Part shown: positions 23,887 to 31,098 of the stretch, piece by piece
Layout of the letters: each line of letters starts with the position of its first letter
How positions within the stretch are numbered: position 1 is the stretch's first letter
Assembly (NCBI RefSeq): GCF_020616515.1
Contig: NZ_CP085135.1
Coordinates: 4,340,001 to 4,404,000 of the forward strand
Source of the DNA: Mesorhizobium sp. PAMC28654
GTDB taxonomy: Bacteria; Pseudomonadota; Alphaproteobacteria; Rhizobiales; Rhizobiaceae
DNA: 64,000 bases
Direction: 5' to 3'
Program-made: the position numbers and the translations under genes
Notes under the pieces: generated by a model
The model's database searches: none
Told to the model about the DNA's origin: nothing
Seen by the model: the letters and a program-made list of their open reading frames with translations, nothing else

Positions 23887-25842
<1,956 letters not shown>

Positions 25843-28967: not shown

Positions 28968-29118
28968 GCTCCCTCCCCGAAGCCAATGCAACAATGTTGT
29001 CCGTTTGCCCCTGGACTGCAAGCCGGTTCGTCCGGAAAGACACACTACCGGCTTTTTGAGGGTGACGCCTTGCCATTTACCGGATGAGACCCCATCATCA
29101 TGGTGTGTTCAACAAATC

Positions 29119-29133
29119 GAAAGGAGGTGATCC
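29119..29133 (+). promoter_or_regulatory. Extended Shine-Dalgarno sequence
   Basis: GAAAGGAGGTGATCC is complementary over all 15 bases to the conserved 3' end of 16S rRNA (GGATCACCTCCTTTC). The GGAGG core ends seven bases before the ATG at 29135, ideal spacing. Ordinary genes in this window show 4-7 matching bases. Confidence 0.8.
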
Positions 29134-29134
29134 G

Positions 29135-29206
29135 ATGTCGAGTGATTTCGTTTTCCAGAACGTGGCCTCAGCGGATTGCACTTTCGGGAAGCAGTCTTCC
29201 CGTTAA
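29135..29206 (+). CDS. Unannotated 23-residue small protein
   Basis: ATG to TAA, 24 codons, beginning MSSDFVFQNV and ending GKQSSR, with one Cys in ADCTFG. It is preceded by a ribosome site with 15-base complementarity to the 16S rRNA 3' end and followed, 70 bases downstream, by a GC-rich terminator with a T-rich tail on the same strand, so a short monocistronic transcript is likely. It is soluble, with no membrane segment. I do not recognise the family. The gene is divergent from cfa and convergent with the TadG-like gene. An alternative is that the ribosome site acts as a ribosome-binding decoy or regulatory RNA, with the peptide incidental. Confidence 0.6.
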   Translation: MSSDFVFQNVASADCTFGKQSSR

Positions 29207-29275
29207 GGCGCGAGATGCGCGGCGGGTGACCTCACAGGTCGCCGCCATTGGGCCGCGCCATGGACGGAAACACGG

Positions 29276-29314
29276 AAGGCCGCCGGCTTCGCAAGAAGCG
29301 GCGGCCTTTTCCTT
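29276..29314 (+). terminator. Rho-independent terminator of the small gene
   Basis: AAGGCCGCCGGCTTC pairs with GAAGCGGCGGCCTT (14 bp, one bulged G, GCAA loop) and is followed on the plus strand by TTCCTTTTCC. The minus strand lacks a T tail, so it belongs to the transcript containing the 29135 gene rather than to the TadG-like gene. Confidence 0.75.
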
Positions 29315-29324
29315 TTCCGCGATG

Positions 29325-30686
29325 CTATTTGCTCAGCGCCAGGCGCTCGATGTTGCGGGCGATGGTCTGGAACGCGGTGTCGAGTTCGGCGCCGTTGGCG
29401 GCCTGGTAGAAATGCTTGATGCCGCCGCTGTCCGGGCTGGCGCAATCCTGCAGGGTTGCCTTGGCGTTCGTCTCGTTGAGATCGAAGCCGATGGTGAATA
29501 TCTCGATGCCCTTGTCACGCATGGCGGCGCAAAGCTTCTTCGCCGCCGTGCGGGTCGGTTCCTTGCCGGCGTCATTGTACACCTGGTTGACGGTGCTGGC
29601 GTCGAAATAGGACAGGTTGAACTCGCCGTCGGTCATCAGGATCGCGTATTTGGCGACCTTCTTGGGATCCATCTTGGCCGGCCGTTCCGAGGCCTTCATC
29701 ACGCTGCCCCAGTTTTCCGAAAGCATGTACCAGGCCCATTGCACGCCGACGTGACCGGCAGTGCCGCCGGAGGCGACGAAGGTCTTGATCACATTCTTGA
29801 GCGCCGTGGCGTCGGCCGTCAGCGGTATCAACGTGGCCGATGGACAAGCGGCGGTGCCTGTCTGTTGCGCGAAGCCCGAAAGCAGATAATCGCGATTGAC
29901 CATGCTGGAGTCGGGGCCAGCGTCTGAATACTGATCGACACCCTTGCGTTCGGTTGCGCAATTGTCCGGACGCGGTGATGCCGAGACGTATTGCGGGTCG
30001 TTGTTGCCCGGCGCCTGTTTGCGTTGGCTGGTGGACGTTTCGACATAAACGCTGCTGGCGGCAAGCGTGCCGGCATTCACCGAATTGGCGTAAGGCACAA
30101 TGGATACGCGCACCCGAGGCTTGGACAAATCCTGGCCGGCGAGGAATGTGTCGACCGCGTTGCTCGCGGCGGCCTTGAGATCCTTGATTTTCTGGCCGGC
30201 CATGGATCCTGTCACGTCAAGCATCATGGCCACCTCGATCGTCTTGTCCGAATAGACGGCCGTGGTCGAGACAGGCACGCGCTGCATGTTGCCGATGCTG
30301 AACAGCGGGAAATAGAACGCGATGTTGACATAAACATCCGCCTGCACCGTCTTGGCAATCGGGTCGACCGTCAATTTGTCGAGAACGATCTGATTGGCCT
30401 GCAGGATGCCCGCCGAGTTGTTGGCATCGAGAAAGGCCTGCACCGACGCGTTCGCATTGGCCTCCTTGATGACGCCGGTCGTCAGATCACGCGCCGTCGA
30501 GGTGACGGCGGCATCGACCACGCCCTGCAGGCTCGACCTGGCATTGTAGAGCTGGGACAGGTTGACCGAGAAGCCGACGGCCAGCGCCAAGACCGAGGCG
30601 GTAAGGCCGAACAGGACTGCGAAATTTCCACCGCGATCCTTGGCGAAACCGCCAATCGCGTGAACAAGACCCCCGTAATTCCGCAT
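29325..30686 (-). CDS. TadE/TadG-like pilus-associated protein with VWA domain
   Basis: The ATG at 30686 has an AGGAGAGG site and gives 453 residues. Residues 15-45 (DRGGNFAVLFGLTASVLALA) are the single N-terminal hydrophobic helix typical of TadE/TadG pseudopilin-like proteins, which are secreted with Flp/Tad pili. A von Willebrand factor A domain follows, with a MIDAS motif Asp157-x-Thr159-x-Ser161 (MLDVTGSMAG) and TDGEFN further on. No other tad/cpa gene is nearby, so it is a solitary member; several such solitary VWA-TadG genes occur in rhizobia. Confidence 0.82.
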   Translation of the reverse strand: MRNYGGLVHAIGGFAKDRGGNFAVLFGLTASVLALAVGFSVNLSQLYNARSSLQGVVDAAVTSTARDLTTGVIKEANANASVQAFLDANNSAGILQANQIVLDKLTVDPIAKTVQADVYVNIAFYFPLFSIGNMQRVPVSTTAVYSDKTIEVAMMLDVTGSMAGQKIKDLKAAASNAVDTFLAGQDLSKPRVRVSIVPYANSVNAGTLAASSVYVETSTSQRKQAPGNNDPQYVSASPRPDNCATERKGVDQYSDAGPDSSMVNRDYLLSGFAQQTGTAACPSATLIPLTADATALKNVIKTFVASGGTAGHVGVQWAWYMLSENWGSVMKASERPAKMDPKKVAKYAILMTDGEFNLSYFDASTVNQVYNDAGKEPTRTAAKKLCAAMRDKGIEIFTIGFDLNETNAKATLQDCASPDSGGIKHFYQAANGAELDTAFQTIARNIERLALSK

Positions 30687-31098
30687 CCTGTTGCCTCTCC
30701 TCGCCTCGGCCTCGTCGCCGGGAAGGTTCGATGCAGGATTCCAGCCGGATGACGCCGCCAATCGCCCAAAGGCAGGGCAGGCGACACAAACTCTTTGTTT
30801 TTGTTGGGTTTTGTCAGGAAGACAGGGTCAACAATCCGTAAACGCGACAGCAACTCTCGCGCCGTTTACCTGGCGCTTACCACGATCTGGTCCACCCAAA
30901 AGGAGCCGTCTGGAACGCGTCCCGCGGCGGCACAGCCGGACTGTGCCAGAGCGGATCACCGCCAGCTGATGCCGTGACCAGTGCATGTCGCCCAAAGTGG
31001 AAACCGGTTTCTCGGACAAACGGTCCCCGTTTGTCCAGAGATCATGGTCAAGCAAGAAGATAGAGTCCCATCCCGACACCATCGGGATGGGACAGGCT
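30687..31098. other. Intergenic region with two perfect hairpins
   Basis: About 412 bases between the TadG-like and transglutaminase-like genes. No coding frame is convincing. GCCCAAAGTGGAAACCGGTTT followed by a 10-bp hairpin GGACAAACGG / CCGTTTGTCC (31014-31036) resembles a degenerate rhizobial intergenic palindromic element; this likeness is from memory. The hairpin at 31065 is listed separately. Confidence 0.5.
31065..31093 (-). terminator. Terminator-like hairpin after the transglutaminase gene
   Basis: A perfect 12-bp stem GTCCCATCCCGA / TCGGGATGGGAC with a five-base loop begins six bases past the stop at 31099. The T tail on the minus strand is poor (TCTATCTTC), so it may stabilise the 3' end rather than terminate strongly. 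Confidence 0.55.

Follow-up and report, generated by a model that had tools for sequence, protein, structure and literature searches.

A tiny reading frame behind a fifteen-base Shine-Dalgarno sequence in Mesorhizobium: a distant relative of CC2171 and a candidate translation-gated RNA

A tiny frame with an extended ribosome-binding site

The window analysed here, a stretch of 64,000 nucleotides from Mesorhizobium sp. PAMC28654 (NZ_CP085135.1, positions 4,340,001 to 4,404,000), holds on its plus strand a short RNA that seems to be an independent transcription unit (Table 1). The promoter scan listed one site where 0.1 were expected, and its -10 box ends 20 nt before the Shine-Dalgarno sequence (SD), which is also the commonest spacing in relatives. 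Indeed, when 212 unique sequences of relatives were collapsed at 70% identity into 77 lineages, promoter-like boxes with a -10 ending 12-32 nt before the SD were found in 51 of them (shuffles 2.8, maximum 8), the spacing being 20 or 21 nt in 36 of these 51. Judging from the -10 position, transcription probably starts near 29105, ahead of a leader whose AAC recurs within 14 nt of the SD in 79 of 83 sequences from a search that did not demand it. At the other end, the plus-strand terminator that an earlier note on this DNA had seen after the frame is present as a hairpin followed by Ts; a simple terminator scan listed none, though the hairpin is plain in folds, and a terminator-like hairpin occurs in 196 of 212 relatives.

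The next gene downstream (29325-30761, minus strand), which we take to be of TadG / von Willebrand type, is convergent with the RNA, and this type of gene lies beside it in 32 loci belonging to 6 of the 77 lineages. A mini-ORF followed by a terminator resembles an attenuator, and the RNA could in principle be a cis-acting leader of a neighbouring gene; but the gene that follows lies on the other strand, a conserved same-strand gene downstream is absent, and any one neighbour family recurs in at most 7 of the 77 lineages, many loci spanning just 1.5 kb of flank. We give this explanation hardly any credence. With its promoter-like boxes, its terminator and no recurrent neighbour, the RNA instead seems to stand alone.

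Table 1. Features of the RNA and its surroundings, in window coordinates.
Feature	Position	Strand	Basis
Promoter-like boxes TTGCCA (29070-29075) and CATCAT (29093-29098), spacer 17	29070-29098	+	promoter scan
Short leader with CAAC	29105-29118	+	AAC recurrence before SD
Extended SD GAAAGGAGGTGATCC, complement of the 15-nt 16S tail	29119-29133	+	exact match, pairing-energy rank
Helix A 5' arm: 3' half of SD plus base preceding ATG; partner 29172-29179	29127-29134	+	covariation
Mini-ORF, 23 codons plus TAA	29135-29206	+	conserved start, frame and stop; drifting amino acids
Helix L 5' arm, early ORF; partner 29250-29273	29142-29168	+	fold and own-versus-swapped partner test
Helix A 3' arm CGGATTGC, start of imperfect internal 16S-tail copy	29172-29179	+	covariation
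Hairpin B, CGGGAAG-CAGT-CTTCCCG, end of ORF	29185-29202	+	covariation, 30 relatives
Hairpin separating ORF from 3' arm of helix L; varies among relatives	29221-29246	+	fold only
Helix L 3' arm, directly before terminator	29250-29273	+	fold and own-versus-swapped partner test
Intrinsic terminator: hairpin 29274-29312, T-rich tail 29307-29316	29274-29316	+	sequence and fold

The SD, GAAAGGAGGTGATCC, is the reverse complement of the 16S tail GGAUCACCUCCUUUC, a sequence that we took from the S. meliloti entry in an oligonucleotide table (PMC6943124); we presume that it is also the species' own tail, a presumption because a search of the genome (G000) gave no 16S rRNA gene, which is perhaps masked or withheld (0 of 1, the control search being positive in 9 of 14 well-known genomes). 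The SD is the sole exact match in the window, where three other listed sites each have three mismatches; its 13-base core, AAGGAGGTGATCC, is unique within the genome of 6.70 Mb. Its pairing with the 16S tail, at -28.6 kcal/mol, ranks first among the 5,337 start codons of the window; the second rank (-25.7) falls to an overlapping GTG that uses the same SD, and the next unrelated start reaches -19.4. The very unusual ribosome site noticed before the tiny frame is therefore real, although its placement seven bases before the ATG applies to the GGAGG core and not to the 15-mer, whose end lies one base before the ATG at 29135. Among unrelated SD-like stretches, the strongest after this site is AAGGAGGTGTTC, at 24047 on the minus strand, before the TTG of a 30-codon frame. 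Uniqueness in window and genome, together with recurrence in relatives, rules out a chance match, and a stray 16S end or primer sequence was likewise rejected, as the searches demanded a start codon where 16S has different bases. On the evidence of sequence, tight binding of 30S subunits at this site is supported.

Relatives keep the frame and let the peptide drift

One copy of AAGGAGGTGATCCNATG is found in each of 71 of 151 family genomes, and one of AAGGAGGTGATCCNRTG in each of 73 of 387 class genomes, with no match for the reversed control. In a sample of the phylum, with class counts made by hand, the motif is present in 80 of 161 Alphaproteobacteria against 1 of 236 genomes of other classes, and nearly always as a single copy; one genome (G656) has two exact matches, and the sole genome outside the class to have one is G587. 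Adding the CAAC leader and a TC after the start codon to the motif returned at least 119 named records; among the 80 titles listed, all are alphaproteobacterial, save for 3 that say just Proteobacteria. All of these family, class, phylum and named-record searches demanded the exact 13-base core, so that conservation of the core, and in the named-record search that of the leader and the TC, is not readable from their matches. Within the family only, this bias is offset by two relaxed searches: allowing up to three mismatches in a 26-base family-type pattern reached 91 of 151 genomes, and R1, a covariance model of the 5' domain, reached 102 of 151 with one match each. The group names of some loci were assigned by resemblance to the loci of named genomes.

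At the 91 family sites of the three-mismatch search, the exact 15-mer is kept in 62, three are insertion-type, and 26 carry 30 substitutions; 26 of the latter still pair with the 16S tail, for the most part through G.U, and the other 4 break the pairing. An insertion-type SD, with one base inserted, is also found in a sub-group, at 9 of 20 stretches chosen for variant or weaker model matches, which counts against the switch proposed below; considering these substituted and insertion-type sites, the unbroken 15-bp match is usual but not universal. In nine loci (L246, L247, L250, L251 and L253-L257) the SD contains an additional A (GAAAGGAAGGTGATCC) and the peptides are MSNEIS or MSSE(I/F)S, and one locus (L258) has a degenerate copy, CCAGGGAGATGATCC, with TTG in the place of the start codon and a recognisable hairpin region.

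CCUCC motifs occur in alphaproteobacterial sRNAs. An SD of this kind would be able to pair with any of them, and might serve as a sponge for sRNAs bearing such anti-SD motifs, an idea that we hold to be very unlikely: conservation reaches beyond GGAGG to span the 16S complement, including the flanks GAAA and GATCC, and the SD is accompanied by a start codon, a frame and a stop.

The 23-codon frame that follows the ATG and closes with TAA is present as the earlier note described it, and the finding that it named as refuting, an ATG, frame or stop unconserved in relatives, does not arise, for all three are kept. Frame 0 is open for at least 15 codons in all 212 unique sequences (135 and 85 for frames +1 and +2), and it meets a stop at 15-26 codons in 198 of them, against 33 and 28 in the shifted frames; counted by lineage, the figures are 65 of 77, 17 and 13, with 13.7% under a Markov null. 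The second codon is TCN in 57 of 61 loci from a search that did not demand TC. Three loci (L034, L037 and L058) have a frame of 56-58 codons whose start resembles a signal peptide or membrane segment; elsewhere the length is 18-26 codons.

The encoded residues fare differently. Among 24 related ORFs, selected by MSSDFV and a length of 23 codons so that their first six residues are fixed by choice, pN/pS is 0.93, a value that the constraint of RNA pairing on the ORF may itself distort, and the varying columns at codon positions 1, 2 and 3 number 12, 11 and 11 of 23. A Cys-containing peptide, once suggested as the product, finds no backing in this ratio or in relatives such as L009 and L016, where Cys is replaced by Arg. 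Among the matches listed, the Mesorhizobium loci L063, L076 and L120 encode a peptide identical to that of the window; between groups of relatives the peptides differ, and in a wider alignment 1-base gaps move the bases of hairpin B into another frame (EQPLR against LRSSL) with the hairpin retained. A small mRNA for a functional peptide of 18-26 residues would account for the kept frame and the TCN codon, yet it sits so poorly with this pN/pS, with peptides that change from group to group and with indels that shift the frame while hairpin B stays, that we regard it as highly improbable. Since frame and stop are kept while pN/pS is 0.93, it is a frame of limited length, not a peptide, that seems to be selected. 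Such a kept length with a drifting protein sequence suggests an RNA that works through being translated, and not through its protein product.

Crossing helices and a possible switch

Covariation and folding both point to a helix, helix A, in which an inexact internal copy of the 16S tail masks the SD. When such an internal anti-SD was sought by pooling duplex energies, the signal was weak (group means of z from -0.3 to -1.8), which speaks against a switch; that test gave way to a base-by-base covariation test, in which the base before the start codon is compared with the base that opens an NGG(A/G)T(C/T) motif lying 20-62 nt downstream. Watson-Crick pairs were found in 105 of 144 sequences (permutation mean 60.1, maximum 82), comprising all four kinds (G-C 65, A-T 37, T-A 2, C-G 1), and in 33 of 52 when counted by lineage (permutation mean 18.6, maximum 29); for the same motif 63-150 nt downstream, 27 of 94 are paired. 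The remainder of the 144 comprises 9 G.U and 30 non-pairs (A-C being the commonest, at 9); the non-pairs must be entered on the other side of the ledger, as must the absence of the motif from 68 of 212 sequences. Across an alignment of 30 family members, pairing reaches 97.8% in helix A and 99.0% in hairpin B, where 6 of 7 pairs are altered on both sides; the structure behind these percentages was drawn from the same 30 sequences. In an alignment of CC2171-type sequences, one of the helix A pairs is broken in 11 of 25. Rhodobacteraceae-type loci (L067, L088, L128 and similar) have near their 3' end a segment, CTGGCYCATCTCC, complementary to the SD, and in this group, where the helix A motif is mostly absent, it may replace helix A.

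A second helix, helix L, joins the early part of the ORF to the stretch just ahead of the terminator, and in the fold of the window RNA it has 20 pairs. When the 25 nt after the start codon were set against the 32 nt preceding the terminator in 72 lineages, own partners gave -17.3 kcal/mol and swapped partners -13.1 (sd 0.36, minimum -14.7), the own-partner energy being reached in none of 20,000 permutations. The signal holds for the 36 representatives of the MSS group and also for the 50 that lie outside it, with pairings as different as CAUUGUC/GACAAUG, CAUCGUU/GACGAUG and CACCAAA/UUUGGUG. Among the aligned CC2171-type sequences helix L reaches 97.1% pairing, yet it hardly varies and therefore adds little covariation there.

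Helix L starts no more than 8 nt from the start codon in 76 of 86 representatives, a position that lends itself to another reading, that of a 30S decoy: the 15-bp duplex would trap or titrate 30S subunits, whilst helix L, just past the start codon, would hinder their full accommodation. The complementarity to the full tail, maintained through G.U substitutions, also fits a decoy; a pure trap, however, requires no stop at a fixed distance, and here frame and length are kept. We consider it rather unlikely.

Helices A and L cross, so only one of them can form in a nested fold. For the window RNA, the predicted probability of helix A is 0.985 when the RNA is cut at the stop codon and 0.000 at full length, and among relatives with a pairable motif it exceeds 0.5 in 88 of 114 cut RNAs and 10 of 114 full ones. 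Across 82 sequences preselected for a probability of at least 0.5 when cut, the mean is 0.96 cut at the stop, 0.19 at full length and 0.63 with only the 3' domain shuffled, the full-length value lying below the shuffled one in 76 of 82. From cut to full length, predicted accessibility in the window RNA rises from 0.24 to 0.46 for the whole 15-mer; for GGAGG it barely shifts, from 0.30 to 0.38, which is a point against the switch. Helix A is accordingly predicted to be preferred in the nascent RNA and disfavoured in the full-length RNA.

We tentatively posit, as a reading somewhat short of an even chance, that this stand-alone structured RNA of ~210 nt is a translation-gated conformational switch that engages 30S subunits. 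The motif, the frame, the helices and the distribution emerge from comparison of sequences; translation of the RNA, its order of folding and its output are what we infer. Helix A would close the SD in the nascent RNA; once the 3' part had been made, helix L would displace helix A, and the SD would capture a 30S subunit. A ribosome moving over the 18-26 codons would then melt helix L and hairpin B and expose the 3' strand, and after termination the RNA would close again. The state of the RNA, meaning how stable it is or how freely its 3' strand can meet partners, could thereby report the ease of 30S initiation.

Could such a device serve as a class-wide gauge of free ribosomes, pitting the imperfect 16S-tail copy within it against the true tail, with its shape set by translation of a sequence-neutral ORF of limited length? 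We think this doubtful, though worth stating. If true, the RNA would be a stand-alone 'ribosome riboswitch' with the 30S subunit as its ligand, for which we know of no precedent; direct sensing of ribosome availability by an RNA would become a testable question, and a kind of gene would come into view that neither label, 'coding' or 'non-coding', captures. This RNA, which is widespread in one class and catalogued as an sRNA (CC2171), seems to carry a near-strongest possible ribosome site, before a frame apparently selected for length and not content.

CC2171 and other known systems

At gathering scores, Rfam gave no match in the window; ctRNA_p42d (RF00489), with 26.4 bits at 29273-29318 against a gathering score of 50, was discarded, its match being the terminator hairpin. 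Under an E-value threshold, the whole length of CC2171 (RF01867) can be aligned to 29111-29307, with 34.8 bits and thus below its gathering cutoff of 75. Searched through the whole genome, CC2171 gives a single match (model positions 1-159, E 2.8e-5), and of 14 genomes in a control search only Caulobacter vibrioides matches; same-motif loci in other groups reach the cutoff in 5 of 19 cases. The CC2171 consensus carries GAAAGGAGGUGAUCCAGUGUCUCAUUG. Besides the full-length alignment, the two RNAs share a 5' block of CAAC...GAAAGGAGGUGAUCC and start codon, as well as a long-range helix that links the early ORF to the stretch preceding the terminator, both of which are found in the window. Despite the common 5' block, the ORF starts with MSSDF in the window RNA and MSHCH in CC2171, and the latter is catalogued as an sRNA whereas the window RNA shows a kept reading frame. 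The window RNA is thus, in sequence terms, related to the uncharacterised sRNA CC2171, divergent from it and scoring below its cutoff, so that the impression of 'no described family' has to be given up; a regulatory RNA had already been offered as an alternative. What seems new is the anatomy, namely the SD, the length-kept frame and the crossing helices, CC2171 itself being already catalogued.

CC2171 reportedly originates from a Caulobacter tiling-array study. Our literature search, with subscription papers mostly outside its reach, found no functional study of CC2171 and no paper joining it with Caulobacter. An Rfam 15 table gives its structure as improved by one covarying pair (PMC11701678), and M. 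huakuii MH_s33 appears as RF01867, a 215-nt RNA-seq product whose flanking genes lie on the RNA's own strand (PMC5596092). The arrangement at the window locus is different, and orthology with MH_s33 is for this reason probable, not proven.

The M. huakuii transcript (PMC5596092) and the kinship of this structured, terminator-ended RNA with an annotated sRNA family would suit a base-pairing sRNA, whose 3' domain would pair with target mRNAs in trans whilst translation of the mini-ORF tuned its stability. In the alignments, however, no part is less conserved than the 3' domain that separates the ORF from helix L, and hence no conserved seed is apparent; we find this reading quite unlikely.

As regards the translation-gated switch, the accessible text of a Caulobacter profiling study describes intergenic ncRNA regions as untranslated and leaves CC2171 unnamed (PMC4117421), which weighs against it. 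For S. meliloti, the available portion of a study places a third of 54 new translated small ORFs on annotated sRNAs, an RNA of the window type being unnamed in that portion (PMC10117765). The same source describes rnTrpL, a dual-function sRNA that resembles the window RNA in being short, with a mini-ORF and a terminator, and that has a leader peptide with a function of its own and a downstream operon. Unlike rnTrpL, the window RNA has drifting amino acids and an unconserved downstream gene; of the marks of a dual-function sRNA it has the conserved reading frame, and lacks the conserved peptide sequence (pN/pS 0.93 in 24 related ORFs). A further likeness is with 30S entrapment, in which structured leaders of protein genes are held by a repressor, as in autoregulated ribosomal-protein mRNAs. 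These mRNAs and the window RNA alike have a strong SD adjoining structure at the start codon; the former are leaders of protein genes, whereas the window RNA stands alone.
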